64,000 bases of DNA, from the NCBI RefSeq assembly GCF_003148385.1, contig NZ_CP029463.1, positions 3,286,001 to 3,350,000 on the forward strand. The letters run 5' to 3'. A program made the translations under genes and the position numbers. The DNA is from Flavobacterium sediminis. Lineage in GTDB: Bacteria; Bacteroidota; Bacteroidia; Flavobacteriales; Flavobacteriaceae. The notes beneath the pieces are model-generated. The model saw only the letters and a list, made by a program, of their open reading frames with translations. It did not search any database and had not been told where the DNA came from. Positions within the stretch are counted from its first letter, which is position 1, and the number at the start of each line of letters is the position of its first letter. Positions 2,593-47,770 of this stretch are shown here, in pieces.

Positions 2593-3288
2593 ATGCATAA
2601 AATACTCTTAGCAGAAGACGACATTGATTTCGGTAACATTCTAAAACATTATTTAGAATTGCACCAATTTTCAATCATTTTGGCAAAAGATGGAAAAGAA
2701 GCTCTCGATTTCTTTAAAAAAGAGCCATTCTCTATCTGTATTTTTGACGTAATGATGCCTGAAACAGATGGCTTTACCTTAGCTGAAAAAATCATCAATA
2801 TAAATCCGGAAATTCCATTTGTTTTTTTAACCGCAAGAAATCAGATCGAAGATAAAATAAAAGGACTTAAATTAGGCGCAGATGATTACATTGTAAAACC
2901 ATTTGAACCGGATGAATTAGTTTTAAGGTTAAATAACATCATTAAACGAACACAGAAAACAAACATAAAAAGCGTTTTAGAGCCTGTTCGCATAGGAAAG
3001 TACCTGTTTGATACCAATCGGTATGAATTAAAAAACGGAAAGAATACTCAGTCATTGACGGAAAAAGAAACGGCATTAATTTCATTTCTTTTAGAACATG
3101 CCAATCAATTAGTTAAAAGAGAACATGTTTTAAAAGCTGTTTGGGGTAACGATGACTATTTCGCAGGAAGAAGCATGGATGTTTTTATAAGCAAACTGAG
3201 AAGATATTTTAAAGATGATAATACCATTTCACTCGAAAGTACTCGGAATATCGGATTAGAATTTAAAATAAAAAAAGCAGACCTGTAA
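2593..3288 (+). CDS. Response regulator, OmpR family, RprY-like
   Basis: This 231-residue regulator has an N-terminal receiver domain: acidic pocket AEDD near residues 7-10, phospho-acceptor Asp52 in FDVMMPE, a conserved Thr in FLTAR and Lys in VKPFEPDE. A C-terminal winged helix at about 130-228 includes the typical VWGNDDYFAGRSMDVFISKL segment. It is the partner of the kinase upstream. Its last four codons, including the stop, lie on the complement of the 3' end of rnpB, so the two genes converge and overlap by about 12 bp. Confidence 0.93.
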   Translation: MHKILLAEDDIDFGNILKHYLELHQFSIILAKDGKEALDFFKKEPFSICIFDVMMPETDGFTLAEKIININPEIPFVFLTARNQIEDKIKGLKLGADDYIVKPFEPDELVLRLNNIIKRTQKTNIKSVLEPVRIGKYLFDTNRYELKNGKNTQSLTEKETALISFLLEHANQLVKREHVLKAVWGNDDYFAGRSMDVFISKLRRYFKDDNTISLESTRNIGLEFKIKKADL

Positions 3289-3588
3289 GCCGGGTTCTGT
3301 TTCCAAAAGGAATCTTATCATTTATCTAGTTCCGCAATTACTCACGGAATCCATCTGCCTACCCCTCAGCATTGGGCGAGCCACCCTTTCCGGAAAACCG
3401 GAAGCTGATATACATGGCATTTCACCGCATAGAGTTTACCTGATTTCACTACAGCATTACCTGTACATCCTTTCTGTTGCACTTGTCCTATTCCGCAAAA
3501 CGGAATGACGGGTGTTACCCGCTACGCTGCTCTATGGTGTCCGGACTTTCCTCTCTCCTTAAAAGGACAGCGATAAGACGGTCTGCGC
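3275..3588 (-). ncRNA. rnpB: RNase P RNA (bacterial type A)
   Basis: The minus strand carries the universal 5' block GAGGAAAGTCCGGACACC (complement near 3538-3556) and the 3' block ACAGAACCCGGCTTACAGG (complement near 3282-3300). The 5' GCAGACC (complement of 3580-3586) pairs with GGTCTGC (complement of 3277-3283) to form helix P1. The RNA is about 312 nt and is the catalytic part of the tRNA 5'-processing enzyme. A T-run just beyond P1 (complement of the A-run at 3271-3276, inside the response regulator gene) probably terminates it. Ends are approximate. Confidence 0.95.
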
Positions 3589-3590
3589 TG

Positions 3591-32282: not shown

Positions 32283-34031
32283 ATGAATCCGATTCGTTCC
32301 AAATCATTAAAAAAAGTAATGCAATATGCCAAACCGTATCAAAAAAGGTTTAATTGGGTTATTGTCTGGGCTATTTTACTTTCTGTTTTCGCTGCTGCAC
32401 GCCCTTATTTGTTAAAACAAACTGTTGATAAATACCTGAGTACACACGATAGTACGGGCTTGTTGATCTATGTTATCATCATGGCAACAGTTCTTCTCTT
32501 TGAGGTTGTTTCCCAATTTTATTTTACCTATTGGGCAAATTGGTTAGGACAGGATATTATAAAAGACATTCGAGATAAATTATTCAAACATATTACTTCG
32601 TTCCGATTGCAATATTTTGATAAAGAACCGGTAGGAAAACTTGTTACCCGAACCGTTTCAGATATCGAATCCATTGCAAGTATCTTCAGTCAGGGTTTAT
32701 TCATGATCGTAAGTGATGTATTGAAGATGATCGTTATCATCGGGATCATGTTTTATATGAACTGGCAACTTACTTTGATCGTTCTTTTGGCTATGCCGAT
32801 CTTAGTTTATGCTACGCATATTTTCCAACAAAAAATGAAAGTGGCTTTTAATGAAGTTCGCAATCAGGTTGCTAATCTGAATACGTTTGTTCAGGAACGT
32901 TTAACCGGAATGAAAATCGTACAGTTGTTCAACCGGGAGCAAATTGAATATGAAAAATTTAAGGTTATCAATGCTAAACACAACAAAGCCTGGCTTAAAA
33001 ACATTTTATATAACTCGATCTTCTTCCCTATTGCCGATATTGTTTCCTCTTTTACATTAGCGGTTATTGTATGGTATGGAGGAAAAGAAATTATCCATGG
33101 TGATGCTGGCACTTCATTCGGTGATCTTTTTGCTTACACCATGTTGATTACCATGCTCTTTAACCCGTTGCGCCAAATTGCAGATAAATTCAATGTTATG
33201 CAAATGGGAATTATTGCAGCCGAAAGAGTTTTTGAAATTTTAGAGACCGAAAGCCACATACAGAACGTCGGAACTGTTGAAGCCCGGCACTTTGAAGGTA
33301 ATATCAGCCTTAAGGACGTTCGCTTCAGCTATATCAAAGGAGAAGAAATTCTGAAAGGGATCAATCTCGAGGTAAATTCTGGAGAAACCATTGCTATTGT
33401 GGGAAGCACGGGTGCCGGAAAATCAACTATCATTAATTTACTGAATCGTTTCTACGAGATAGATTCAGGAGAAATTGCAATTGACTCTGTCCCTATCCAG
33501 GATTACACCATAGAAAGCCTCAGAAAACAAATCAGTGTGGTGCTACAGGATGTTTTCTTGTTTGCCGATACCATTCTGAATAATATTACATTATACAACG
33601 ATTCGATTACCAAAGAAGATGTGATACTCGCCGCGCAAAAAATAGGAGTTCATGATTTTATCATGAGTTTACCGAACAATTACGATTATAATGTAAAAGA
33701 ACGTGGCGTGATGCTTTCTTCCGGACAACGCCAATTGATCGCTTTTTTAAGAGCCTATGTCTCTAACCCGAGTATTTTGATCTTGGATGAAGCCACATCC
33801 TCTATTGATACTTATTCGGAAGAACTGATCCAGCAAGCTACCGAAAAGATCACTCAGGATAGAACATCTATTGTTATTGCCCACCGTTTGGCAACCATTA
33901 TCAATGCTGATAGGATCATCGTTATGGACAAAGGTCAGATCGTTGAACAAGGTACACATCAGGAATTACTTAAAATTACAGATGGTATCTACAAAGGTTT
34001 ATACGAAGCTCAATTTGCTTTAAATCAATAA
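32283..34031 (+). CDS. ABC exporter, MsbA/LmrA-like half-transporter
   Basis: The 582-residue protein fuses a six-helix membrane domain (about 1-310) to an ATPase domain. The ATPase has Walker A GSTGAGKST, Q-loop SVVLQDVF, signature LSSGQRQL, Walker B ILILDEATSS and an H-loop in IAHRLAT. It acts as a dimer to export lipids or drugs. Family assignment is certain; the substrate is not. Confidence 0.93.
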   Translation: MNPIRSKSLKKVMQYAKPYQKRFNWVIVWAILLSVFAAARPYLLKQTVDKYLSTHDSTGLLIYVIIMATVLLFEVVSQFYFTYWANWLGQDIIKDIRDKLFKHITSFRLQYFDKEPVGKLVTRTVSDIESIASIFSQGLFMIVSDVLKMIVIIGIMFYMNWQLTLIVLLAMPILVYATHIFQQKMKVAFNEVRNQVANLNTFVQERLTGMKIVQLFNREQIEYEKFKVINAKHNKAWLKNILYNSIFFPIADIVSSFTLAVIVWYGGKEIIHGDAGTSFGDLFAYTMLITMLFNPLRQIADKFNVMQMGIIAAERVFEILETESHIQNVGTVEARHFEGNISLKDVRFSYIKGEEILKGINLEVNSGETIAIVGSTGAGKSTIINLLNRFYEIDSGEIAIDSVPIQDYTIESLRKQISVVLQDVFLFADTILNNITLYNDSITKEDVILAAQKIGVHDFIMSLPNNYDYNVKERGVMLSSGQRQLIAFLRAYVSNPSILILDEATSSIDTYSEELIQQATEKITQDRTSIVIAHRLATIINADRIIVMDKGQIVEQGTHQELLKITDGIYKGLYEAQFALNQ

Positions 34032-34188
34032 TTAAAACAAAAACAATTGGTAACGATTGGAATCGATTACGAATTAAAAATAAATGCTTAAATTCGCAAA
34101 CAATAATAAACAAACCAAAAATATTTTAAAAGGGAAAGCACATTGTCCTTTTCTCTTTTTAGATTAAAAAACAAATAACTGAATTACA

Positions 34189-35577
34189 ATGAAATACGAC
34201 ATCATCGTTTTAGGAAGTGGTCCGGGTGGTTATGTTACTGCCATTAGAGCCTCACAATTAGGTTTTAAAGTAGCTGTTATAGAAAAAGAAAATTTAGGTG
34301 GTATTTGCCTGAATTGGGGATGTATCCCGACGAAAGCTTTATTAAAATCGGCTCAGGTTTTTGATTATTTAAAACATGCCGGTGATTACGGACTAAAAGT
34401 TGAAAATTTCGATAAAGATTTTAATGCTGTAGTTGCCCGTTCGCGTTCTGTTGCGGAAGGAATGAGTAAAGGTGTTCAATTCTTAATGAAAAAGAACAAA
34501 ATTGATGTTATCGATGGTTTCGGAAAAATAAAACCGGGTAAAAAAGTTGATGTAACCGCAGCTGACGGAAAAGTAACGGAATACAGTGCTGATCATATTA
34601 TCATTGCTACCGGAGCCCGTTCGCGTGAATTGCCTAACCTACCGCAAGACGGAAAAAAAGTGATCGGTTACCGTCAGGCTATGACGTTACCGGAGCAACC
34701 TAAGAAAATGATCGTTGTAGGTTCAGGAGCTATCGGGGTTGAGTTTGCTCACTTCTATAACTCAATGGGAACAGAAGTTACCATTGTTGAGTTCATGCCG
34801 AACATTGTACCGGTTGAAGATGAAGACGTATCCAAACAGTTTGAGCGCTCTCTGAAAAAAGCAGGGATCAACATTATGACAAATTCTTCTGTGGAAAAAG
34901 TTGACACAAGCGGTGCCGGCGTGAAAGCTACAGTGAAAACGCCAAAAGGAGAAGAAATCCTTGAAGCAGATATTGTTCTTTCAGCTGTAGGAATCAAATC
35001 AAACATCGAAAATATCGGATTAGAAGAAGTAGGTATTGCTACTGACAGAGATAAAATTTTAGTTAATGCTTACTACCAGACTAACGTTCCCGGTTATTAT
35101 GCCATCGGAGACGTAGTTCCGGGACAAGCTTTAGCGCACGTTGCTTCTGCTGAAGGTATCCTTTGTGTTGAAAAGATCAAAGGTATGCACGTAGAACCGT
35201 TAGATTACGGTAATATTCCGGGTTGTACGTATGCTACTCCTGAAATTGCATCTGTTGGTTTAACTGAGAAAAAAGCAAAAGAAGCCGGATACGAAATTAA
35301 AGTGGGGAAATTCCCGTTCTCTGCTTCCGGAAAGGCAAAAGCAGCCGGAACACCTGACGGATTTGTAAAAGTAATCTTTGATGCGAAATACGGTGAATGG
35401 TTAGGCTGTCACATGATAGGTGCCGGAGTAACCGATATGATTGCTGAAGCTGTTGTAGCACGAAAATTAGAGACAACCGGTCACGAAATCTTAAAAGCAG
35501 TTCACCCTCACCCTACTATGAGTGAAGCCGTTATGGAAGCCGTAGCTGATGCTTATGATGAAGTAATCCACTTATAA
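34189..35577 (+). CDS. lpdA: Dihydrolipoyl dehydrogenase
   Basis: The 462-residue FAD enzyme has the N-terminal GSGPGGY nucleotide motif, redox disulfide in GGICLNWGCIPTKALL, NAD site VGSGAIGVE and the C-terminal His-Glu dyad in HPHPTMSEAVMEA. It is the E3 component of 2-oxoacid dehydrogenase complexes or the glycine cleavage system. It stands alone, with a terminator behind it. Confidence 0.96.
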   Translation: MKYDIIVLGSGPGGYVTAIRASQLGFKVAVIEKENLGGICLNWGCIPTKALLKSAQVFDYLKHAGDYGLKVENFDKDFNAVVARSRSVAEGMSKGVQFLMKKNKIDVIDGFGKIKPGKKVDVTAADGKVTEYSADHIIIATGARSRELPNLPQDGKKVIGYRQAMTLPEQPKKMIVVGSGAIGVEFAHFYNSMGTEVTIVEFMPNIVPVEDEDVSKQFERSLKKAGINIMTNSSVEKVDTSGAGVKATVKTPKGEEILEADIVLSAVGIKSNIENIGLEEVGIATDRDKILVNAYYQTNVPGYYAIGDVVPGQALAHVASAEGILCVEKIKGMHVEPLDYGNIPGCTYATPEIASVGLTEKKAKEAGYEIKVGKFPFSASGKAKAAGTPDGFVKVIFDAKYGEWLGCHMIGAGVTDMIAEAVVARKLETTGHEILKAVHPHPTMSEAVMEAVADAYDEVIHL

Positions 35578-35800: not shown

Positions 35801-37651
35801 GTGAGAATACCGTATCGATACATATTTATTTTAATCTTCATTTTTTTAAGTTGTAAGCAACTGAATGCCCAGATCACAGTCCAACGCAAAGACTCTACAA
35901 CAATCTATCACGATATTTACAATTACTCAAAAAAGGGAAAGTTCTCCAAGTTCATGTATCGGTTATTTTTCCGTCCTTCCAGCTTATCTACAGCTACTTT
36001 GATTGATAATGAAAAGGAACGCCAGAAAAAAGAAGAAAAGATCCGGGAAGTTAATCATTCATCAAATGGTAAAGTGATCCGGAATGTCTATATTAAAACT
36101 CTGGATCCTTTCGGGTATTCCTTACAAGACAGTACACGCAGTCCTAAAACCGGATTTGAACGCTTTGGAAATTCAGTTCATGTCAAAACCAATGAATTTA
36201 CAGTACAGAACTTGCTTTTATTTAAACAATACGATCGTTGCGATACTTTAAAATTACAAGAGACAGAGCGTTTGATCCGTAGTCAGCGTTATGTACGACA
36301 GGTTACTGTCCTACCCCAACCTACCCAAAGTCAGGATTCTATTGATGTTTATGTAACCTTATTAGATTCGTGGAGTTTAATTCCGACAGGAAATATCACT
36401 TCCGGTGATTGGGAAGCCAAACTAACGGAGCGAAATATTATGGGGTACGGTCATAAAATATCCGGAAGTTATAAAGAAGAATTTGCGACTAAGCGCAATG
36501 CTCATTATGCCCAATACACTATAAACAACATTAAGAACAGTTATATTTCATTTGACCTGATATATCAAAAGGACTATTATAGTAACAGTTCAAGAAGTAT
36601 TGGTCTCACCCGAAACTTTTTCTCTCCGTTAACTAAAAATGCGGGAGGTGTCTATTTTGAAAACAGAGAAGCAACCGAAAACTTCTTTTATCCTGATAGT
36701 ACCTACAGGCAAACTGTAAAAACAGAATATCAGGAATATTGGTACGGAAGGGCTTTTAAAATTTTAAAACCGGACACTTATTTAGGTAAAACAACTAATT
36801 TAATTACTTCGATTACCTTTAACAAAAAGATATATACTGAAGTCCCCGATGCAACGTTTGATCCTACTTCTTTTTTTGCTTCTGAAAACAATATTATAGG
36901 TCAGGTAGCTTTCACCGCTCAGAAATACTATAAGGACAGTTATTTATTCAATTACGGTATTACTGAAGACGTTCCTTATGGTAGTATTTATGCGCTTATC
37001 TTTGGGAAGCAAACTAAAAACGGTGATAACCGATCGTATTTCGGTGCTAAATTTGCTAAAGGAAAACGTTACCCTTTCGGTTATTTAACTGCTACCACCG
37101 AATGGGGAACCTTTATCAACGACGGAAAATCAGAACAAACCGCCTTCTCTGTCGGATTTCAATATATCAGTCCTTTGTGGAGTATCGGTTCGTGGCGTTA
37201 CCGTCAGTTCATTAAGCCCAGTTATACCTGGGGTAACAATCGGGACGCTTCCGTCAAAGACCAGTTAAGCCTAAACAATACAAATGGTTTACAAGATTTT
37301 ACCGATGGTATAACCGGAACCCAAAGATGGCTTTTAGCCATGCAAATGCAAACGTATGTTCCGAAAGACTGGTACGGTTTTCACTTTAGTCCGTATGCCA
37401 ACATAACTTTGGGAGCCTTAGCCGATAATACTAAAAATTTGTTCCAAAGCAAAGTATATCCTAAATTCAGTCTGGGTGTATTGATCAACAATGACTATTT
37501 GGTTTTCAACAGTTTTCAGATCTCCTTCTCTTATTATCCTACTATTCCGTATGAAGGAGACAACATCTTAAAAAGCAATTCATTGGAAAATAACGATTTA
37601 AAATTATCGGATTACCAAGTAGGAAAACCTGCTTATATTTTGTATCAGTGA
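35801..37651 (+). CDS. Large outer membrane beta-barrel protein with POTRA-like N-terminus
   Basis: This 616-residue protein starts at GTG 35801. The signal peptide runs to about 24 (LSCKQLNAQ). A POTRA-like segment near 145-195 (LQETERLIRSQRYVRQVTVL) is followed by alternating strands to the C-terminus. The layout resembles the BamA/TamA superfamily, but I see no clear BamA signature. Probable role is in outer membrane assembly or transport. It is bounded by the lpdA terminator and another hairpin downstream. Confidence 0.7.
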   Translation: MRIPYRYIFILIFIFLSCKQLNAQITVQRKDSTTIYHDIYNYSKKGKFSKFMYRLFFRPSSLSTATLIDNEKERQKKEEKIREVNHSSNGKVIRNVYIKTLDPFGYSLQDSTRSPKTGFERFGNSVHVKTNEFTVQNLLLFKQYDRCDTLKLQETERLIRSQRYVRQVTVLPQPTQSQDSIDVYVTLLDSWSLIPTGNITSGDWEAKLTERNIMGYGHKISGSYKEEFATKRNAHYAQYTINNIKNSYISFDLIYQKDYYSNSSRSIGLTRNFFSPLTKNAGGVYFENREATENFFYPDSTYRQTVKTEYQEYWYGRAFKILKPDTYLGKTTNLITSITFNKKIYTEVPDATFDPTSFFASENNIIGQVAFTAQKYYKDSYLFNYGITEDVPYGSIYALIFGKQTKNGDNRSYFGAKFAKGKRYPFGYLTATTEWGTFINDGKSEQTAFSVGFQYISPLWSIGSWRYRQFIKPSYTWGNNRDASVKDQLSLNNTNGLQDFTDGITGTQRWLLAMQMQTYVPKDWYGFHFSPYANITLGALADNTKNLFQSKVYPKFSLGVLINNDYLVFNSFQISFSYYPTIPYEGDNILKSNSLENNDLKLSDYQVGKPAYILYQ

Positions 37652-38896: not shown

Positions 38897-39211
38897 ATGG
38901 ATTGGAAAATCAAATTAGACAATCCATATGGTGGACATTGGCTTGACACAGTTAATTCAAGACTTTTGGTAAAGACTGTTTATTGGAAGAATGTTGCCGA
39001 GTACGATGTAACATCTGGAAAACTAATATCATACATTAAAAATGACTCCCTACAAAAACTTATAGAAAGCAAAATGAAAGACGAAAAACTTTTAGAAAGT
39101 CATGAGTATCATTTTATTGAAAAAGGTATAGAATATACTCTTAAATGTAGACCTTCAAAAGGAAACGAAGTTGGAGAATATACAATTGAAATAGAAAAAT
39201 ACTACCGCTAA
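38897..39211 (+). CDS. Hypothetical protein at the left edge of the cassette array
   Basis: The 104-residue soluble protein has no recognised domain. Its stop codon TAA (39209-39211) lies inside the first attC-like repeat, as in array genes, but no matching cassette start (GTTAGCGG) is found upstream, so the left boundary of this unit is lost or it belongs to the flank. Confidence 0.55.
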   Translation: MDWKIKLDNPYGGHWLDTVNSRLLVKTVYWKNVAEYDVTSGKLISYIKNDSLQKLIESKMKDEKLLESHEYHFIEKGIEYTLKCRPSKGNEVGEYTIEIEKYYR

Positions 39212-39344
39212 CATCGGCTATAAATCATGGCTGGGTTTGCGCATATTTTCCGAATTTTCGGAGAAAATTCGAAATTAAATTCTATATTTGGAATGGTTCG
39301 GTTTGTGGTTTTCGCCACAATTTTATAGCCGAGGATCGTTACTA
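39205..39344 (+). repeat. attC-like site A
   Basis: It opens with CCGCTAAC and closes with GTT (39338). Inner arms CGGCTATAAA (39215-39224) and TTTATAGCCG pair perfectly over 10 bp. A terminal hairpin CGAATTTTC-GGA-GAAAATTCG sits in the middle. The next unit starts at the closing GTT. Confidence 0.7.
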
Positions 39345-39366
39345 AACTAAATGAAACATTCAACAT

Positions 39367-40200
39367 ATGACATTTACAGAGTATTTAAATACAGATATAG
39401 ACAATTCAGATTTAATTTTTGAATATTATCTTCAATATTTATCAAATTTATCATCAAAAGATTTTCCATATGAGGAACAAATTCAACTGAAAGCCACTTC
39501 AGTAAAATTCATGAATTGTATTGAAAATTTAACTTACATCATAAAGGAAAAAAAAGAGAAATATTTTGAATTAATAAATCAAATAATTGAAGATGTAAAA
39601 ATTCATAGGAGAAGAAAAGACAAGTCTAAAATTTTACTATTTCTATTAGCTAAAAATGGTAACATTATACCTAAAATTAAGGATGATTTTGAAGAAGTTT
39701 ATTCTCAAACATTAGAATTTATTGGAGAAGCATCAAATATAAGGCATTACAGATATGACAATTTGAAACTTGATGGTTTTTTTCAACCAGAAAATTCAAA
39801 TAAACACCAAGTAAAACAACTTATACTTGAAGCAATTGAATTAATAGAAAAGGATAATACTATCAGTGAAAAAGTTAAAAAACAAATCATTGAATATTTA
39901 CAAAGAGTAATCAAAAAACTTGATAATGAATATATAAATTGGTCATCAGTAATTGGTTGCATTAAGGAAACTATCATTGTCTTAGGAGCATTAGGCGGTT
40001 TTGTAGGTGGAATGACTCCATTAGTTTTGGCTAAAGATAAACTAGAAGAAACTTCTACAGTTATTGAAAAAACTTCAATAAATATTAATTACAAAACAAT
40101 CAACGAGACATTTAATATTCAAAATGTTGAGAGATTAGAACAATTAAATGGTACAGTTTTTCAGCTTAATCAAAATAACCCAAAAGTACCAGAAGAATAA
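39367..40200 (+). CDS. Cassette gene 1: hypothetical protein with a C-terminal membrane helix
   Basis: The 277-residue protein is largely helical and charged up to about residue 195. A Gly-rich hydrophobic segment follows (ETIIVLGALGGFVGGMTPLV, about 203-222), then an Asn-rich tail. It starts 27 nt after the unit's GTT and ends just before site B. No family recognised. The unit's start (GTTACTAAAC) does not match its own closing repeat (TGCCTACAAC), unlike most neighbours, suggesting a past rearrangement. Confidence 0.7.
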   Translation: MTFTEYLNTDIDNSDLIFEYYLQYLSNLSSKDFPYEEQIQLKATSVKFMNCIENLTYIIKEKKEKYFELINQIIEDVKIHRRRKDKSKILLFLLAKNGNIIPKIKDDFEEVYSQTLEFIGEASNIRHYRYDNLKLDGFFQPENSNKHQVKQLILEAIELIEKDNTISEKVKKQIIEYLQRVIKKLDNEYINWSSVIGCIKETIIVLGALGGFVGGMTPLVLAKDKLEETSTVIEKTSININYKTINETFNIQNVERLEQLNGTVFQLNQNNPKVPEE

Positions 40201-40210
40201 TCTAAAAACC

Positions 40211-40349
40211 TGCCTACAACAACGGTTAAAAAAAATGGCTTGGTCAAGAATTTCCCGAAAATTCTCCGAATTTTCTAAGTTTTGTCTATTTTTGTTTTGG
40301 CTTGGTTTTGGCTCACGCCACTTTCTTTAGCCGCGGATCGTTAGCAACT
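40211..40349 (+). repeat. attC-like site B
   Basis: It opens TGCCTACAAC and closes at GTT (40340). Arms CGGTTAAA and TTTAGCCG pair with one G:T. GAAAATTC-TCC-GAATTTTC forms the central hairpin. It is very similar to site C. Confidence 0.7.
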
Positions 40350-40384
40350 ATATTAAAAAAAACTAAGCAATTAATTTCTAAATA

Positions 40385-40972
40385 ATGAAAAAATCATATC
40401 TATTTTTAATTTTTAACTTGTTCGTTTTAAATGTCTTTAGCCAAAATATTACTCTTGAAGAATTTCAAAAACAAATTGCTGAATCTGGTTTGCAATTTGA
40501 AATGCCTGTAGGTTATAAAATTAAAGAAATTAAGGAAAATAGAGATTTAAATTACTCTTTTGCAATAATAAATTCTGAAGGAACCATGGAAGTTCGATAC
40601 TCTATTTTCCCAATGAAACAAATGTTAGCTGAATATGAAAAATCAAAAAATGACCCAAATGTAACTATGATAAATCCTAATAAATTGTATATTGGAATTA
40701 TGCAATCAAATGGACTTAATATGACAAATGGAAAAATGGTTAATATTGGAGATTTTCCAACCTTTGCCGTTAGAAAAGAATTTAATGCTGATTATGGTGG
40801 AAATGCTTTTTTTGAATTTAACTGTGAGTTTGGCAAAGGTTATAAATATGGACAATTTATTTGCCTTCATAAAGAAAACTTAGCCGACGTAATAATAACA
40901 TTTATGAGTAATGATAGAAATACACATTCTGACTTAATGGAAATTCCTTTTCACTCATTAACTTTTAAATAA
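40385..40972 (+). CDS. Cassette gene 2: secreted hypothetical protein
   Basis: The 195-residue protein has a signal peptide (cleavage near NVFSQ) and a beta-rich body. It is the only ORF in a unit running from GTT 40340 to site C. Unit start and closing repeat are exact reverse complements over 10 bp. Function unknown. Confidence 0.75.
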   Translation: MKKSYLFLIFNLFVLNVFSQNITLEEFQKQIAESGLQFEMPVGYKIKEIKENRDLNYSFAIINSEGTMEVRYSIFPMKQMLAEYEKSKNDPNVTMINPNKLYIGIMQSNGLNMTNGKMVNIGDFPTFAVRKEFNADYGGNAFFEFNCEFGKGYKYGQFICLHKENLADVIITFMSNDRNTHSDLMEIPFHSLTFK

Positions 40973-40977
40973 AATAC

Positions 40978-41117
40978 AGTTGCTAACAGCGGTTAAAGTA
41001 AATGGCTTGGTCAAGAATTTCCCAAAAATTCTCCGAATTTTCTAAATTTTGTCTATTTTTGGTTTGGCTTGGTTTTGGCTCTTTGCCACTACTTATAGCC
41101 GCTAACCGTTGGCGGTC
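40978..41117 (+). repeat. attC-like site C
   Basis: It opens AGTTGCTAAC (40978-40987), the exact reverse complement of GTTAGCAACT at 40340, and closes at GTT 41108. Inner arms are AGCGGTTAAAGTA and TACTTATAGCCGCT. Confidence 0.75.
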
Positions 41118-41151
41118 AGCTTAAAAGACGACTGCACAACAGACAAATAAA

Positions 41152-41655
41152 ATGTGGACGACAATAAAAAATAATTACAAGACTATTTTGACAACAACAG
41201 GACTTTTTCTTGTTGGATTTATAGTTGCGTACTTATTTGAAGACTATTACCGACAACTTGTTAGGTTTTCGTTCAAGTTTTTTAATGGTGATAACATTCA
41301 GTTTATTGGCAAGAACTTCCACTTGTTTGCTAGCTACAGTTTTGTTACTGCATTTGGACTTTTTGTTTCGTTGACATTTTTGTTATTAAAGTTTTCTTCT
41401 CGACCTAGTAGACTAAAAAGAACCTGCGCGGCAATTATTTTTTTCTTCGCCACGACAATTTTAGTAACTGCATTTGACAGTATACGACTAGTGGTCGAAT
41501 GCACAGCTTGTAATGATGGAATTAGACGATTAACTTTCAATCAACCTACATATGACAAATATTTTATAATTAGTTTGACTATTGCTGTTGCTTACTTGTT
41601 GACTACATATTTATTAGAAAGAAAACGACTAAGAAAAAGTAATGAAACAATATAG
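41152..41655 (+). CDS. Cassette gene 3: four-TM hypothetical membrane protein
   Basis: The 167-residue protein has TM segments near 12-31, 59-85, 97-117 and 140-158 and a short Cys pair (VVECTACNDG) in a loop. No family recognised. Single-gene unit between sites C and D. Confidence 0.7.
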   Translation: MWTTIKNNYKTILTTTGLFLVGFIVAYLFEDYYRQLVRFSFKFFNGDNIQFIGKNFHLFASYSFVTAFGLFVSLTFLLLKFSSRPSRLKRTCAAIIFFFATTILVTAFDSIRLVVECTACNDGIRRLTFNQPTYDKYFIISLTIAVAYLLTTYLLERKRLRKSNETI

Positions 41656-41659
41656 AACG

Positions 41660-41797
41660 AACCGCTAACACGGGTTTTGCGTCAGGCGGGCTGACGTGCA
41701 AACTTGGAGATTTGTGCTTCTAATGAACTTTAGTAATAAATTGAAGCTTTGTGCTCCGAAACCCGCCCGAACGCAAAGCCCGAAACCGTTGGCGGTA
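41660..41797 (+). repeat. attC-like site D
   Basis: It opens ACCGCTAAC (pairs with unit start GTTGGCGGT with one G:T) and closes at GTT 41788. Inner arms CGGGTTTTGCGT and ACGCAAAGCCCG pair over 12 bp with one G:T. Its centre differs from the other sites, so it is a separate subfamily. Confidence 0.7.
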
Positions 41798-41816
41798 ATT
41801 AAAAGAAACTCTGCAA

Positions 41817-42239
41817 ATGAGACAAAAACTGAACTTAATAACACTTGGAACTGACGACTTTCAGAAATCATTAGATTTTTACGAAAAAGGGCTTGGTTGG
41901 AAAAAATCCGACAAAAGTATGGACGGCTTAGCTTTGTTTGACTTGGATGGAATTATTTTAGCACTGCACCCAAGACACGAACTTGTGGACGACACGACAT
42001 TGACATATCAGCCGACAACATTTTCGGGACTTACAATTTCGCACAACACGAAATCGGAAAAAGAAGTGGACGAAATTTTAGAAAAGGTTGCGAAACTTGG
42101 TGCGACAATCGTAAAACCTGCACAGAAAGTTTATTGGGGTGGTTACAGCGGTTACTTCAAAGACTTGGACGGATATCTGTTTGAAGTTGCTTACAACCCA
42201 TTTTGGAAACTTGACGAAAATGACAACATAAAACTGTAA
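41817..42239 (+). CDS. Cassette gene 4a: VOC (glyoxalase/bleomycin-resistance-like) protein
   Basis: The 140-residue protein has two beta-alpha-beta-beta-beta modules with LITLGTDDFQKSLDFYEKGL near the start and YFKDLDGYLFEVAYNPFW near the end, typical of the VOC superfamily. Substrate unknown. Its stop overlaps the start of the next gene (TAATG), giving a two-gene cassette. Confidence 0.85.
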   Translation: MRQKLNLITLGTDDFQKSLDFYEKGLGWKKSDKSMDGLALFDLDGIILALHPRHELVDDTTLTYQPTTFSGLTISHNTKSEKEVDEILEKVAKLGATIVKPAQKVYWGGYSGYFKDLDGYLFEVAYNPFWKLDENDNIKL

Positions 42240-42514
42240 TGACAGCAACGCAGACCATAAAAGCATTGACAATAATTCCGGGCGTTGGAAAATCTATTGC
42301 GACAGATTTATACAACATCGGAATTAGATACGTTGACGACTTGAAAGGTAAAGACCCGGAAGTACTTTACGACAACTCGAATTTGTTTGCAGGTTGCGTT
42401 CAAGACAGGTGTTTACTTTATGTTTTTAGGTGTGCAGTGTATTTTGCAGAAACACCGACAGAAAGACAAGACAGCGAAAAACTAAAATGGTGGAATTGGA
42501 AAGACAAAAAATAA
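42239..42514 (+). CDS. Cassette gene 4b: helix-hairpin-helix (Cdd1-like) protein
   Basis: The 91-residue protein has an HhH motif (LTIIPGVGKSIATDLYNIGI) and a C-terminal Cys/Trp-containing part (GCVQDRCLLYVFRC, WWNWKDKK). This matches the small 'pathogenicity locus Cdd1' HhH family, possibly DNA-binding. It is translationally coupled to the VOC gene. Confidence 0.8.
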   Translation: MTATQTIKALTIIPGVGKSIATDLYNIGIRYVDDLKGKDPEVLYDNSNLFAGCVQDRCLLYVFRCAVYFAETPTERQDSEKLKWWNWKDKK

Positions 42515-42515
42515 C

Positions 42516-42652
42516 TACCGCCAACAATGGCTATAAGTAATTGCTTGTTTTCGCCTACTTCTGAAAATCCGCGAGGGTTTTCAGTTTGGTGTGTACTTGC
42601 AGAGTTTCGCACCAACCCGAGCAACTACTCATAGCCGAGACCGTTGGCAATA
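42516..42652 (+). repeat. attC-like site E
   Basis: It opens TACCGCCAAC, the exact reverse complement of GTTGGCGGTA at 41788, and closes at GTT 42643. Inner arms GGCTAT and ATAGCC extend to AGTA/TACT. The centre can form an imperfect CTGAAAATCC/GGGTTTTCAG hairpin. It shares most of its sequence with sites F and G. Confidence 0.8.
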
Positions 42653-42668
42653 ATTTAAAACATACGTC

Positions 42669-43538
42669 CTGAAAGAACAATTATTTCATATAACAACAGA
42701 AGACAACGAAAGAATAGCTCTTTGGAAATTTAATACCGCATTCAAATCTGAAAGGCATATTTTTTTGACTCACGGTACTTTTTCTAATAGAAAAATATGT
42801 TCTGGAATTGCTTCTTATCTGACTGAACAAGGATTTACTTGTTGGCTAATGGAATGGCGAAATCACGGAGAAAGTTCAAAAACTCAAAATGATTTTGACT
42901 TCGAGACAATTGCAAAATATGACCTTAAATCTGTATTTGAATTTCTTTTCAACAACCGAAATATTAAAAATATAGATTGTTTAGCTCATAGTGGTGGCGG
43001 AATTACACTAACGATGTTCTTAATCAACAATCCAGATTATCAACCGAAAATTAAAAGCATTACATTATTTGGAGTTCAAGCTTTTGGAGCAGGAATTGAA
43101 TTTAATAATAGAATGAAAATTTTGGCGAGTAAATATTTGACAGCCTTGTTAGGAGTTGTTCCAGCTAAAACAGCCGGCTCAACTGAACATAGTGAAAGCT
43201 ATTACACAATGAAACAATGGTTCAATTGGAATTTAAAACATAACTTCATTGGAGAAAATGGATTTGACTATTTGAACGAAATGAAAAAAATTAAAATTCC
43301 GGTTTTATCAATTTGTGCGAGTGGAGATAATTTTATTGCACCAAAAGTCGGTTGCGAGAAATATCTAAATGCCTTTGAAAATTCAAAAAACCAATTTATT
43401 TATTTATCAAAAGAAAATGGAAATCTTGAAGATTACAATCATAGCAGAATATTAAAATCACAAAGTTCAAAGAAAGAAATCTGGCCGATTGTAACTGAAT
43501 GGATAAATAATAAAAACTATTGCCAACAATGGCTATAA
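42669..43538 (+). CDS. Cassette gene 5: alpha/beta hydrolase without a conventional start codon
   Basis: The serine hydrolase has the nucleophile in LAHSGGG, the oxyanion segment LTHGTFSNRK and a late acid/His region. The frame is open from 42654 and codes for a sensible hydrolase N-terminus (KEQLFHITTEDNERIALWKF) but has no ATG, GTG or TTG before a TTG at 42765, which would remove it. A CTG at 42669 is the best-placed start. The stop (43536-43538) is inside site F, so the last residues (NYCQQWL) are encoded by the repeat. Confidence 0.75.
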   Translation: MKEQLFHITTEDNERIALWKFNTAFKSERHIFLTHGTFSNRKICSGIASYLTEQGFTCWLMEWRNHGESSKTQNDFDFETIAKYDLKSVFEFLFNNRNIKNIDCLAHSGGGITLTMFLINNPDYQPKIKSITLFGVQAFGAGIEFNNRMKILASKYLTALLGVVPAKTAGSTEHSESYYTMKQWFNWNLKHNFIGENGFDYLNEMKKIKIPVLSICASGDNFIAPKVGCEKYLNAFENSKNQFIYLSKENGNLEDYNHSRILKSQSSKKEIWPIVTEWINNKNYCQQWL

Positions 43539-43654
43539 GTAATTGCTTGTTCTCGTCTACTACTGAAAATCCTTGCGGATTTTCAGTTTGGTGTGTACTT
43601 GCAAAGTTTAATGCTAAAACACGCAACTACTCATAGCCGAAACCGTTGTAGGCA
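43518..43654 (+). repeat. attC-like site F
   Basis: It opens TATTGCCAAC, exact reverse complement of GTTGGCAATA at 42643, and closes at GTT 43645. The central hairpin CTGAAAATCC-TTGC-GGATTTTCAG is perfect over 10 bp. Confidence 0.8.
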
Positions 43655-43717
43655 ATTATCCGAAAAAATTCCGTTATATATTTAAACTTTCATCAATTAA
43701 AAAAACTTGAACAACTA

Positions 43718-45148
43718 ATGAAAAACTATTTTTTGACCTTACTAATCGGAATTATTTGTTTAATTTCTTGCAAAGAAAATACCGAAACAACAAAATTTCA
43801 AAGCAAAACAAACCCAAAAGCATTAAAGCTTGATACACTTTATTCCGAATTATATGATAAAGGAAATTTTAATGGTAGTGTTCTAGTTGCCGAAAATGGA
43901 AATGTAATATTTGAAAAAAGCTACGGAATAGCCGATGAACAAACCAACCGAAAGTTGAACGACAGTACAATATTTGAATTAGCTTCTGTCTCAAAACAAT
44001 TTACGGCTATGGGAATTGTTCAGCTTGTAAAAGAAGGTAAACTATCCTATGAAGACGATATTACCAAATATATCCCTGAACTAAATGATTATAAGGAAAT
44101 TACAATTAAAAACTTATTAAACCATACGGGCGGTCTTCCTGATTATATGGAACTCGCTGACAAAAATTGGGATAAATCTAAAATAGCAACGAATGATGAC
44201 ATTCTTAAACTATTTAACCAAGTTAAACCCAAAAAACTTTTTGAGCCAAACGAAAAATGGGATTACAGCAATACGGGATATTTAATTTTAGCGACAATTA
44301 TTGAAAGAGTAAGTGGACAAAAATTTGGACAATATCTTCACGAAAAAATATTTAAACCTTTGGATATGAAAAACACATTTGTTTACAGAAGGAGGTTTCA
44401 GCCTAAAGAGATTCAAAATTATGCTAACGGCTATATTTATTCAGACAGTTTACAAAAAAAGATTTTACCTGACGAAATGGGTAAAGATTTCTACGTGGTA
44501 TTTCTTGACGGCATAGTAGGCGATGGAATGGTTAATTCAAACCCAAAAGATTTACTAAAATGGGACAGAGCACTTTATGGAAACAATTTAATCAATGACC
44601 AAGACCGTAATCTGATATTTTCATCTACAATGACAAAAGACAGTTCTCAAACCGACTATGGATTTGGATGGATGATTGATAGCACAAAAACATATGGTAA
44701 AATTGCCTCTCATTCCGGAGGTTGGGCTGGATATATTTCTTACATCGAAAGAAATCTTGATAACGACAAGACTATAATTATTTTGCAAAATAATTCCTTA
44801 TCAAGTACAGAAATACCGATAAAAAATACTCGTAGAATACTGTACAATCAAGAAGTTGAAAAACCTATAAAGTTAGATAACGAAATTTTAAAATCGTATG
44901 CAGGCAAATATCTTACCGATACTCAAAAAGAAAAAGAAATAGCTTTCGAAAATGATAAACTTTACGTTGTTATGAGTGCAGACTATAAAATGGAACTTGT
45001 CCCAGTTTCTAAAACAAAATTCATTGTTGATGGCTGGTCACCAGAAGTTTCATATACGTTCATCTTGAATGATAATGGAAAAGTAGAAAAATATAGAGTC
45101 ATTCAAGAAGCTCAAGGAATTAATAAAACTGCAAACCGAATAAAATAA
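43718..45148 (+). CDS. Cassette gene 6: serine beta-lactamase-family lipoprotein hydrolase
   Basis: The 476-residue protein has a lipobox (CLISC) and a beta-lactamase/class C-like domain with SVSK (nucleophile Ser and Lys), YSN (Tyr motif) and HSGGWAGY (third motif), then a C-terminal lipocalin-like extension. Such proteins are esterases or D-aminopeptidases more often than true lactamases. Single-gene unit with a 10-bp matched start and end. Confidence 0.85.
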   Translation: MKNYFLTLLIGIICLISCKENTETTKFQSKTNPKALKLDTLYSELYDKGNFNGSVLVAENGNVIFEKSYGIADEQTNRKLNDSTIFELASVSKQFTAMGIVQLVKEGKLSYEDDITKYIPELNDYKEITIKNLLNHTGGLPDYMELADKNWDKSKIATNDDILKLFNQVKPKKLFEPNEKWDYSNTGYLILATIIERVSGQKFGQYLHEKIFKPLDMKNTFVYRRRFQPKEIQNYANGYIYSDSLQKKILPDEMGKDFYVVFLDGIVGDGMVNSNPKDLLKWDRALYGNNLINDQDRNLIFSSTMTKDSSQTDYGFGWMIDSTKTYGKIASHSGGWAGYISYIERNLDNDKTIIILQNNSLSSTEIPIKNTRRILYNQEVEKPIKLDNEILKSYAGKYLTDTQKEKEIAFENDKLYVVMSADYKMELVPVSKTKFIVDGWSPEVSYTFILNDNGKVEKYRVIQEAQGINKTANRIK

Positions 45149-45149
45149 C

Positions 45150-45286
45150 TGCCTACAACAATGGCTATAAGTAATTGCTTGTTCTCGCCTACTTCTGAAA
45201 ATCCTTGCGGATTTTCAGTTTGGTGTGTACTTGCAAAGTTAACTGCTAACCCACGCAACTACTCATAGCCGAAACCGTTGCGTGTA
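45150..45286 (+). repeat. attC-like site G
   Basis: It opens TGCCTACAAC, exact reverse complement of GTTGTAGGCA at 43645, and closes at GTT 45277. The central CTGAAAATCC/GGATTTTCAG hairpin is perfect. Confidence 0.8.
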
Positions 45287-45301
45287 ACTTACCCAACTAC
45301 C

Positions 45302-45883
45302 ATGGATAAAACAAGCATTAATAATTATTTCCATTCTTTATTTCCAATAGAAAAAGAAACTGTTGAGAAAATAACTGAAACATTTATCCAGTTTTCGCTT
45401 GACAGAAATACAAGGCTTTTAGATAAAGAAACAATTAGTACCAAAACATACTTTTTAGAAAAAGGATATATGCGTTCCTACATTCTAAACGAAGATGGTG
45501 AAGAAGTTACAACAAATATTTATTGGGCACCTTGTTTTGTAAATGACTTTCTTTCTTTTTTTAAAAAACAACCTACTAAAGAAATATACGAAACATTAAC
45601 CGAATGTTCTTTTTGGGAAACAAGTTTAGAAAATGTTCAACAAAATTTTCATACAATTCCTGAATTTAGAGAATTTAGCCGACTTTTATTTGTAATCAAT
45701 TACTATAAATTAAATGACAGATTAATAGAAGCTGTAAGTCAGAAAGCTGAAACAAGATATTTAAATCTTTTAAAAAAACAACCTCATATTTTTCAGTATG
45801 TCCCTTTAAAAATAATTGCCTCTTATTTAGGAATAACAGACTGTACATTAAGCAGAGTTAGAAAAGATATTTCTAAAATGTAA
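45302..45883 (+). CDS. Cassette gene 7a: Crp/Fnr-family transcriptional regulator
   Basis: The 193-residue regulator has an N-terminal cyclic-nucleotide-binding-like beta roll (FFLEKGYMRSYILNEDGEEV) and a C-terminal helix-turn-helix ([20 protein letters not shown]). A longer frame starts at the cassette boundary, but ATG 45302 is the natural start. An FNR-box-like palindrome lies just after its stop and before the next gene. Confidence 0.88.
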   Translation: MDKTSINNYFHSLFPIEKETVEKITETFIQFSLDRNTRLLDKETISTKTYFLEKGYMRSYILNEDGEEVTTNIYWAPCFVNDFLSFFKKQPTKEIYETLTECSFWETSLENVQQNFHTIPEFREFSRLLFVINYYKLNDRLIEAVSQKAETRYLNLLKKQPHIFQYVPLKIIASYLGITDCTLSRVRKDISKM

Positions 45884-45887
45884 TTTC

Positions 45888-45901
45888 TTGACATTTATCA
45901 A
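45888..45901. promoter_or_regulatory. FNR-box-like palindrome
   Basis: TTGACATTTATCAA differs from TTGATnnnnATCAA at one position. It is 46 bp before the reductase gene and directly behind the Crp/Fnr gene. Confidence 0.5.
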
Positions 45902-45946
45902 GTATGTTTTTGATTAATTCACCTCATTTTTGTAAAAAAATAAATA

Positions 45947-46903
45947 ATGGAAAAAAAACATATTGTAGTAGTTGGGTTAGGAGGAGTTGGAGGTTATTTT
46001 GGCTTTAAGATAAGTCAATTTAGTGAGCTGAATAATCACCATAATATATCTTTCATAGCAAGGGGTAAAACCTATGATATTTTACAAAACAACGGCTTGA
46101 CCTTATTGTCTCCTGAACATAAAAACAATATAACAAAACCGAACATTGTTCTATCTTCTATCAAGGAAATAAACAATCCTGATTTAGTCTTAATTTGTGT
46201 TAAGGAATATGATTTGGAAAATGTCTGTAATCAATTATCGGAAGTAATAACTCCAAAAACTATTATACTTCCCATGATGAATGGCGCAGATATTTACGAT
46301 AGAATTCGAAAAATAATTCCAAAAAACATTATTCTACCTTCTTGTGTTTATGTCGCATCTCATATAAAACAAAAAGGAATTGTTGAACATAAAGGAAAAG
46401 CAGGAAAATTAATTTTTGGAAAAGCCCCTCAGGATTCATCCGAAAATATTAATTGGGTTATTGACCTGATGAAAAACAGTAAAATCGACTTTGATTTTAA
46501 AGATAATGTTTTGACCGACATTTGGACTAAATTTATTTTTATCTCAAGCTTTGGTCTCGTAACAGCTAAACATAACTCCTCAATAGGTGCTGTTTGTGCT
46601 AATGAATTTCAAAAAAAAGAAGCAATTAATATTATGAGCGAAATCAAAGAAATCGCTGATGAAAAAGGAATAGAATTACAAGAAAATATTATCGAAACAA
46701 CTTTTGAGAAAGCTGCTACATTTCCTCCTAAAACTCCGACATCTTTACAACTTGATATTCATTCAGGTAAAAGCAATAATGAATTAGAATTGTTTGCAGG
46801 AGCAATAATAAAATATGGTCAAGATTTGAATCTAAAAACACCATATACAAGAGAAATTTATGAACAAATAAAAGCTACACACAACAATGTATATACAAAA
46901 TAG
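45947..46903 (+). CDS. Cassette gene 7b: 2-dehydropantoate 2-reductase-family protein
   Basis: The 318-residue oxidoreductase has the NADP motif VVGLGGVGGYFG, catalytic Lys in DIWTKFIFISSFG, and an ApbA/PanE C-terminal domain with the SLQLDIHSGKSNNELE segment. It is related to PanE of CoA biosynthesis, but many homologues act on other 2-oxo acids. It is probably controlled by the Crp/Fnr protein next to it via the 45888 palindrome. Confidence 0.85.
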   Translation: MEKKHIVVVGLGGVGGYFGFKISQFSELNNHHNISFIARGKTYDILQNNGLTLLSPEHKNNITKPNIVLSSIKEINNPDLVLICVKEYDLENVCNQLSEVITPKTIILPMMNGADIYDRIRKIIPKNIILPSCVYVASHIKQKGIVEHKGKAGKLIFGKAPQDSSENINWVIDLMKNSKIDFDFKDNVLTDIWTKFIFISSFGLVTAKHNSSIGAVCANEFQKKEAINIMSEIKEIADEKGIELQENIIETTFEKAATFPPKTPTSLQLDIHSGKSNNELELFAGAIIKYGQDLNLKTPYTREIYEQIKATHNNVYTK

Positions 46904-46994
46904 GCGTGACAGTAGTAAATTCAAGGGTTGTAGCCGCTTCAACTTTGTAACGGTTTGATGTCCGAAATCGACTACTTTGCATATACTCAACGTT
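46904..46994 (+). repeat. Degenerate attC-like site H
   Basis: This 90-bp junction ends at GTT 46992 like the others, but the expected opening (reverse complement of GTTGCGTG) is missing. Only a weak pairing such as AGTAGT/ACTACT is seen. It is either a decayed site or another subfamily. Confidence 0.4.
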
Positions 46995-47010
46995 GTACAC
47001 TATTTTGAAA

Positions 47011-47628
47011 ATGAACTATCATAAACTAATATTGTTGTTATTTTATATCTCATCTTTTACAAGTTGCAACAATTTCAAAAAGAATCATAAAGATGAATTA
47101 TCTAGTACACAAATAGACTCTTTGGAATATTCTGTGTTTAACCAAACCTTGTCTACGATTAGTGAAAGAATTTTATTTAATCAATATCATGCTTATCATG
47201 ATGGTAAAGAACTTGACTTCTTTTACGAAAGATTTCTAGAAATTAAAGATACAATTAGTCTATTTGACAGAATTAAAAATGAAAATATAGACACTTCTAA
47301 AACAAGATTATCTAGAATTGATTTTTTAAACTTTGCCGACAGTTTAACTTCATATAAAAAATTAAAAGAAAAAGATTTTTTAATAAATAAAATTAATCAC
47401 CCAAAAAGCATAATATTAATTTCTGAAAATGATGAAATTTTAAATAATATAAATCCAATAAAAAAAGTAACTCTATCTAGAGTTTTCTTTAGTGATGATT
47501 TTAAAAAAGCTGAATATCGTATTGAAGTTATTAGAGGAAATTGGGATGTTATCAGTTATGTCATTAAGTGTGAGTTCAAAAATGGATCATGGTACATTTT
47601 TGAACAAAAAGTGGTTGCAATTAGTTAA
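47011..47628 (+). CDS. Cassette gene 8: hypothetical lipoprotein
   Basis: The 205-residue protein starts at ATG 47011 (MNYHKLILLL), 19 nt after the unit's GTT, and has a lipobox (FTSC). The rest is charged with no recognised domain. The unit start GTTGTACACT and closing repeat AGTGTACAAC are exact reverse complements. Confidence 0.7.
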   Translation: MNYHKLILLLFYISSFTSCNNFKKNHKDELSSTQIDSLEYSVFNQTLSTISERILFNQYHAYHDGKELDFFYERFLEIKDTISLFDRIKNENIDTSKTRLSRIDFLNFADSLTSYKKLKEKDFLINKINHPKSIILISENDEILNNINPIKKVTLSRVFFSDDFKKAEYRIEVIRGNWDVISYVIKCEFKNGSWYIFEQKVVAIS

Positions 47629-47634
47629 AAAAAC

Positions 47635-47770
47635 AGTGTACAACATTGGCTAGCTGTTATCGTGGCTGCTCGCCTACTTTCGAATTTTCTCCCAAAATTC
47701 AAAAGTTTACTTATATTTGTTGTGGCTCCAACTTCATTTACCCTACTTCTTCTTGACCTAAAATCATTAG
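47635..47770 (+). repeat. attC-like site I, 3' part missing
   Basis: It opens AGTGTACAAC (47635-47644), then ATTGGCTAGCTG and a site A-C-like centre (CGAATTTTCTCCCAAAATTC). The expected closing arm and GTT are absent, so it appears truncated and marks the right end of the array. Confidence 0.55.

Follow-up and report, generated by a model that had tools for sequence, protein, structure and literature searches.

The window analysed here is a stretch of 64,000 nucleotides from the chromosome of Flavobacterium sediminis (NZ_CP029463.1, positions 3,286,001 to 3,350,000), which carries, at positions 39205..47770, an array of eight cassette units that all read in one direction and all start with GTT at the places claimed in an earlier note on this DNA (the seventh at 45277). 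Integrons, the classic bacterial engine for collecting and shuffling small genes, are defined by IntI. With a probability of roughly 0.85, the window holds eight cassettes of an integron-type system that have been moved at GTT by a non-IntI tyrosine recombinase, an enzyme which heads the arrays of related genomes.

A cassette in this array extends from one GTT to the next; its one or two genes are encoded on the array strand, and a hairpin site forms its 3' end, the limits being resolved to the GTT triplet. The sites, lettered A to I, resemble the attC sites of integrons, and seven of them (A to G) were used to build a covariance model, R1, so that their own R1 matches, marked below as training set, hold by construction. 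Open reading frame is abbreviated as ORF.

39210..39340, + strand: site A, attC-like, 95.6 bits with R1 (training set), its opening being TACCGCTAAC at 39203-39212 and its closing GTT opening unit 1
39338..40339, + strand: unit 1, GTT start, ORF 39367-40200 (277 amino acids, no Pfam match), site B
40218..40342, + strand: site B, attC-like, 112 bits (training set)
40340..41107, + strand: unit 2, ORF 40385-40972 (195 amino acids, no Pfam match), site C
40985..41110, + strand: site C, attC-like, 109.5 bits (training set)
41108..41787, + strand: unit 3, ORF 41152-41655 (167 amino acids, no Pfam match), site D
41667..41790, + strand: site D, attC-like, 90.4 bits (training set), divergent in sequence and alike in architecture when folded
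41788..42642, + strand: unit 4, glyoxalase-family ORF 41817-42239 (PF00903, 1.2e-15), Cdd1-family ORF 42239-42514 (PF11731, 5.6e-28), site E
42523..42645, + strand: site E, attC-like, 118.2 bits (training set)
42643..43644, + strand: unit 5, alpha/beta hydrolase-fold ORF (PF00561, 7.9e-14) of uncertain start, whose stop at 43536-43538 falls inside site F; site F
43525..43647, + strand: site F, attC-like, 123.6 bits (training set)
43645..45276, + strand: unit 6, ORF 43718-45148, a PF00144 (beta-lactamase/S12) serine hydrolase (3.8e-61), site G
45157..45279, + strand: site G, attC-like, 122.7 bits (training set)
45277..46991, + strand: unit 7, ORF 45302-45883 (cNMP-binding match under the Pfam cut-off), ORF 45947-46903 (ketopantoate-reductase, ApbA, family), site H
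46883..46994, + strand: site H, attC-like, R'' at 46876-46885 inside the ApbA-family ORF, inner stem GTATAT/ATATAC; absent from the R1 matches at E<=1
46992..47768, + strand: unit 8, ORF 47011-47628 (205 amino acids, no Pfam match), site I
47642..47768, + strand: site I, the last of the array, opening intact and 3' side eroded (ATT in place of the closing GTT); a weak R1 match (23.3 bits, E 0.068)

Pairing of the unit ends

In the units starting at 40340, 41788, 42643, 43645 and 46992 the pairing of the first bases with the opening of the closing site spans exactly 10 bases and goes no further, which reproduces the complementarity reported for these five units in the earlier note, and in the unit at 41108, also singled out there, the pairing covers 9 bases with one G:T included. 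For the unit at 45277 the closing site begins at the AAC at 46883, farther upstream than is apparent, and pairs at 9 of 10 positions with one C:A mismatch, pairing being resumed at positions 12-14 as it is in other arrays. When six unit starts were compared with every AAC on the + strand of the window, runs of at least 9 (G:T allowed) were obtained in 49 of 8505 cases, true pairs included.

Beyond the window, nine array stretches were analysed in the same manner, keeping units with gaps of up to 2,500 bases and exact GTT/AAC. Runs of 9-10 bases between the two ends of the same unit were found in 219 of 271 units, as against 18 of 263 when a start was compared with the site of the next unit and 22 of 268 when the two sides of one site were compared as they stand in the array. 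An independent set consisting of named loci gave 59 of 76 for own-end pairing and 2 of 53 for the control. The bases from the opening GTT thus pair with those that open the hairpin of their own unit. Since own-end pairing is frequent and within-site pairing is rare, a complete outer stem is as a rule confined to the closed circle, which agrees with the earlier proposal that the ends of a circular cassette form the outer stem of an attC-like hairpin.

In a canonical IntI array from another Bacteroidota family (locus L254), the ends pair in all seven of seven units over 9-12 bases, and the idea that a 10-base end pairing by itself marks a non-IntI system was dropped given these lengths. The pairing in this canonical array exceeds the 7-base R box that is usually quoted; the array sits upstream of IntI on the same strand.

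Hairpin sites, copied units and breakpoints in related genomes

A custom site model applied to this and related genomes had been suggested as a check, and R1 served that purpose. In the complete 3.44-Mb genome of the window it finds three clusters: the window itself, 2862975-2874888 (minus strand) and 39609-41852. The two further clusters (C1:2862975-2874888 and C1:39609-41852, loci L032-L034) have sites of the window's kind, and in the latter cluster one unit start pairs at 9 of 10 positions and another at 10 of 10 counting G:T. Matches at E<=0.001 were obtained in 128 of the 149 genomes of the window's family, which judging by its named relatives is probably Flavobacteriaceae, with at most 23 candidates scored per genome. 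The largest arrays comprise 78 sites in 76 kb (genome G068), 79 in 78 kb and 21 in 14 kb (G113), and 44 and 52 sites (G014). The nine array stretches together contain 300 sites (used out of 303 R1 matches), in a single orientation within each array.

The imperfect hairpin with an AAC...GTT core, by which attC sites are recognized, is present here both in stem covariation and in the folds of the circle form. In an alignment of the best 150 of the 303 matches, both partners vary in 10 of 17 stem pairs and the proportion of paired cells is 96.7%, as against 21-39% with the partners slid, although these figures are favoured by the alignment having been fitted to the model. The unpaired spacer is asymmetric, with mostly 2-3 nucleotides on the side of the AAC as against 5-6 on that of the GTT. 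Of 230 units folded in the circle form, 223 have the bottom strand as the more stable one and 5 the top strand, while random pieces of unit bodies lean the opposite way (bottom 70, top 203, of 277). Integron R boxes follow the consensus RYYYAAC/GTTRRRY; the form GTTRRRY fits 22 of 206 distinct starts here, where 21.4 are expected from column composition, and the sites do not follow this consensus.

The possibility that each attC contains a promoter was rejected: of 243 distinct sites, 36 have TAnnTTTG on the + strand and 27 have it on the - strand, in no case with a -33 partner. A loose hairpin scan was dropped, having given about as many matches in reversed as in real sequence.

What moves can be read from units that occur more than once. 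Near-identical copies account for 88 of 277 units among these arrays and fall into 24 families, from which a breakpoint profile was drawn using one non-adjacent pair per family in 23 of the 24 (one was omitted because its sole pair is adjacent). At the 5' breakpoint the copies agree fully (1.00) from the first base of the opening GTT up to +22, and upstream of it 20-base blocks show 0.40-0.65, the last ten bases (0.43-1.00) reflecting the site consensus. At the 3' breakpoint the closing hairpin shows an identity of 0.95-0.97 and the GTT one of 1.00, after which the values fall to 0.17-0.52 over +3 to +9 and rise again at the consensus positions +10 and +11. These limits at both GTTs define a mobile unit that begins at one GTT, ends at the next and carries its hairpin at the 3' end, and the compared copies fit a crossover within GTT and not an exchange between similar hairpins. 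Breaks falling away from GTT had been named in the earlier note as grounds for abandoning the idea of cassettes, and the copied units of other genomes break at GTT.

Growth of the arrays by RecA-type homologous recombination between repeated hairpins is made conceivable by the near identity of hairpins within a genome (sites E, F and G of the window, for example, are nearly identical to one another), which would permit exchange; exchange within a hairpin would, however, carry along part of the neighbouring hairpin, whereas identity stops at GTT on both sides, and the attI pairing and recombinase linkage described below would be left unexplained, making this explanation very unlikely. It is even harder to credit a reading of the units as small transposable elements, bounded by 10-bp terminal inverted repeats and separated by hairpins that are static repeats of the genome. 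Five units of the window do have perfect 10-base inverted-repeat ends, as such elements would, but what near-identical copies have in common is the 3' hairpin as far as GTT and not the 5' hairpin, from which it follows that a hairpin travels with the gene upstream of it, and as a rule the averaged copy profile shows no unit copies with differing 3' hairpins. Moreover, the arrays are strictly one-directional, and a search of the array stretches with recombinase profiles found one such gene inside an array. Within the second array of G014, an ORF at 33229-34509 (array orientation) encodes a 426-amino-acid tyrosine recombinase with an extra C-terminal part.

As to gene content, the longest ORF lies on the array strand in 202 units and on the opposite strand in 2, and 71 units have no ORF of at least 60 amino acids, so that some cassettes may be non-coding or very small. 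One near-identical cassette family in G113a/G113b has 18 copies (about 460 bases in the pair compared). The DNA of the glyoxalase/Cdd1 cassette of the window, compared with 397 genomes, gave apart from itself three matches to the glyoxalase gene and one to the Cdd1 gene, at 69-73% identity. A search for an empty site using the flanking protein 35801-37648 in 121 genomes of the genus gave a best match of 54% identity, which is too distant to judge. Elsewhere in the window, a bacterial class A RNase P RNA lies at 3270-3589 on the minus strand, being the sole match of an Rfam scan at gathering scores.

The recombinase at the head of the arrays and its attI-like element

Directly upstream of three large arrays, and on the array strand, lies a gene for a tyrosine recombinase of 390-394 amino acids. 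An alignment of this recombinase found at least 585 named loci, of which the best 80 are treated here; in these, R1 found 125 sites in 42 loci, 125 of 125 on the recombinase strand. In all 42 loci with sites the first site is downstream of the recombinase (median distance about 1 kb), and the 683 kb upstream of the recombinases have no R1 site. Among loci with at least 1.5 kb of downstream sequence, 34 of 42 have R1 sites. At the level of genomes, at least five sites were found in 74 of 97 that have the recombinase and in 14 of 52 that do not, presence being taken as a best E of <=1e-45, a threshold of our own choosing.

Residues R230, K255, H319, R322, H345 and Y354, which we take to be catalytic, are invariant in 49 recombinases. 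Aligned to IntI (2A3V), the recombinase lacks the insert (residues 183-242), having 17 residues instead, and keeps the SPL motif at its C-terminal end. It scores 213 bits against the IntI profile TIGR02249, the cut-off of which is 265, and is barely at the cut-off of NF040815 (recomb_XerA_Arch; 220.6 versus 220 bits). The nearest solved folds according to Foldseek are XerA (5HXY) and IntI (2A3V). An extra N-terminal domain is present, weakly similar to XPB/HARP DNA-structure-recognition domains; by sequence, it matches entries of the PDB weakly (best E 0.0026 over 19 positions). Some members bear the NCBI name "site-specific tyrosine recombinase/integron integrase".

These data also bear on the explanation that the arrays are ordinary attC arrays moved by an ordinary IntI that has since been lost or was left unassembled. 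Such canonical integrons would share the GTT/AAC core, the site at the 3' end and the cassette-specific end pairing seen in the canonical Bacteroidota array, and the alignment to IntI 2A3V, the SPL motif and the NCBI name may be read in the same way. We consider it unlikely, because none of the 149 family genomes reaches the TIGR02249 cut-off, R1 finds 0 sites (E<=0.01) in 20 canonical IntI loci covering 337 kb, the recombinase lacks the IntI insert, the R box departs from GTTRRRY and, in the tree, 11 IntI rows form a separate clade (100/100) with the array recombinase outside it. The earlier remark that integrons are rarely reported in Bacteroidota needs correction in that canonical IntI, absent from the sampled genomes of the window's own family, is not rare in the phylum as sampled, exceeding the cut-off in 84 of 296 genomes. 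The units behave as integron-type cassettes, and the suggestion of a different cassette system holds in part, the arrays of relatives belonging to a non-IntI tyrosine recombinase.

In relatives, then, the array is preceded on its own strand by the recombinase gene, after which, in subgroup 1 (loci L135-L170), comes an attI-like element. This element, ATATAACNNGTT or a close form of it, occurs within 220 bases after the recombinase stop codon in 34 of 36 subgroup-1 loci, the background rate being 0.039 per 220 bases. The first cassette begins at the GTT of this element: among the 20 loci that have both an element and a site no more than 3 kb away, 13 show a pairing of 9-10 bases between the stretch from this GTT onwards and the first site found. 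As a candidate part of a Pc promoter at attI, the motif TAnnTTTG, the -7 element of Bacteroidota, lies within 40 bases upstream in 11 of 36 attI-like matches, and a loose form of it in 22. The window, scanned for the attI form [AT]A[AT]AACNAGTT, gave no match. Subgroup 2, which includes members from Flavobacterium, Chitinophaga and Algoriphagus, often has a palindromic element after the recombinase, of the ATCTACCC...GGGTGTATA type with variable outer arms, seen just after the stop codon in L197, L202, L206, L210, L213, L214 and others; this is possibly the attI of subgroup 2.

A number of observations weigh against the interpretation of the window as part of a non-IntI cassette system. Cassette movement is deduced from the comparison of sequences, and the window array may be dead, its own genome being without the array recombinase. 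Within the window, the ends of unit 1 (39338) are unpaired, which could possibly reflect a fused or partly deleted cassette, and a scan of the window gave no upstream unit start matching the opening of site A. The pairing over 9-12 bases in L254 means that long cassette-specific pairing is common to true integrons and not special to these arrays, and in the same canonical array the bottom strand is more stable in 1 of 6 units, so that a stability bias alone is no demonstration of bottom-strand recombination.

Others concern the recombinase and the attI-like element. No such recombinase was found in about 12 kb upstream of the second array of G014 or in about 4 kb upstream of that of G113, and the 14 recombinase-less genomes with at least five sites have already been mentioned. 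Among loci with at least 2 kb of downstream sequence, 8 of 39 are without an R1 site, a figure tempered by the origin of R1, which was built on sites of the window and overlooks divergent ones such as H. Short relatives of 284 amino acids, without the N-terminal domain (L128, on a Flagellimonas plasmid, and L226 of genome G001), have sites on the opposite strand in a divergent arrangement and are perhaps a further variant. Subgroup 2 is not one clade and has no ATATAACNNGTT element after the recombinase, and 7 of the 20 attI-like elements are unpaired with the first site found, R1 having perhaps overlooked the true first site in those loci.

The system, taken as a whole, probably works like an integron and its recombinase is not a member of the IntI family. 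Cassettes are likely to be cut out and inserted at GTT by the non-IntI tyrosine recombinase, which would join attI to a single-stranded, folded attC, the strand recombined probably being the bottom one, for which greater stability is predicted. The extra N-terminal domain may help to bind the folded site, thereby replacing the IntI insert. The array of the window would then be a deposit of past activity or one served in trans, and might now be immobile or slowly eroding, as the state of site I and unit 1 suggests.

Orphan state of the window array and comparison with known systems

A search of the whole genome for recombinases, likewise proposed in the earlier note, returned 14 tyrosine recombinase matches, the sequences of which were read; none is of the array type in this complete genome, the best relative (1.5e-29) being at the level of Xer-like matches in other genomes. 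With clusters of sites present and the array recombinase not found, the window array is an orphan, CALIN-like one (a cluster of attC sites without an integrase), which agrees with the first reading of this locus. According to the available part of the IntegronFinder 2.0 article, a CALIN consists of at least two attC sites and no integrase (PMC9024848); the window has nine sites (the last eroded) and no integrase, its sites being of non-canonical type. A CTnDOT-like integrase (L005) near the 2.86-2.87 Mb cluster was considered as a driver and set aside, scoring 37 bits against the array-recombinase profile. Two tyrosine recombinases of 368 and 297 amino acids lie in tandem in the same genome, and this pair is present twice, about 7.9 kb apart (C1:2206642-2208025 and 2214538-2215921; L002/L013 and L003/L014), perhaps part of a duplicated mobile element.

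Cassettes of this kind are also found on plasmids, a search with site F matching 3 of 72,556 records. A mobilizable-type plasmid of Flagellimonas marinaquae (NZ_CP092416) carries a dihydrofolate-reductase-family cassette with a 9-base end pairing, located between two R1 sites (L128:8290-9123) and adjoining a Tn3-family transposase, and a Chryseobacterium plasmid has a subgroup-2 recombinase followed by R1 sites. On balance we lean towards a wider proposal, namely that Bacteroidota own a second integron platform, built on a recombinase that falls outside the IntI clade, with attI and attC of its own, a HARP/XPB-like domain replacing the insert, superintegron-sized arrays throughout the family and cassettes moved onto plasmids. 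If a non-IntI enzyme does this throughout a family of bacteria that are common in the environment, searches keyed to IntI miss a large pool of cassettes, including those on plasmids such as the dihydrofolate-reductase-family one, and the system would show which parts of the integron reaction (strand choice, the insert) are essential and which are replaceable.

Among the top-ranked results in the open-access literature none describes a non-IntI integron from this family, preprints and subscription papers lying outside the scope of that search. In the portion of the IntegronFinder 2.0 article that is available, a complete integron is reported in one Bacteroidetes, Salinibacter ruber M1 (PMC9024848). 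As far as its available text goes, a survey of tyrosine recombinases states that the insertion is incompletely conserved in the integron-like subgroup, yet essential for function, and describes in that subgroup no insert-less members heading cassette arrays (PMC8138268). In Riemerella ATCC 11845, part of a 2026 report states, aph(3')-IVb with 27 bases of 5' and 140 bases of 3' untranslated region was inserted without flanking homology after natural transformation, and its authors note an attC-like folding of the 3' untranslated region (PMC13148043); that part names neither a recombinase nor an array. This uptake is likely to be linked to the present cassette system, which may then explain, in a way that can be tested, how a gene was taken up there without homology.

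Of the known XerA/XerC/XerD recombinases, XerA is together with IntI the nearest solved fold. Xer is encoded separately (L001 and L004 in the window's own genome). Xer acts on dif sites; the array recombinase, unlike Xer, heads cassette arrays and carries an N-terminal extension. It differs from the enzymes of IntI integrons in having no insert, in its extra N-terminal domain, in its position outside the IntI clade and, in subgroup 1, in its attI, ATATAACNNGTT, while its sites differ from those of the canonical array L254 in having the longer spacer on the GTT side, which in L254 is seemingly longer on the AAC side. With integrons and superintegrons, on the other hand, it shares the recombinase, the attI, a one-directional array of cassettes with 3' hairpins, breakpoints at GTT, cassette-specific end pairing, large chromosomal arrays and arrays without a recombinase (CALIN).

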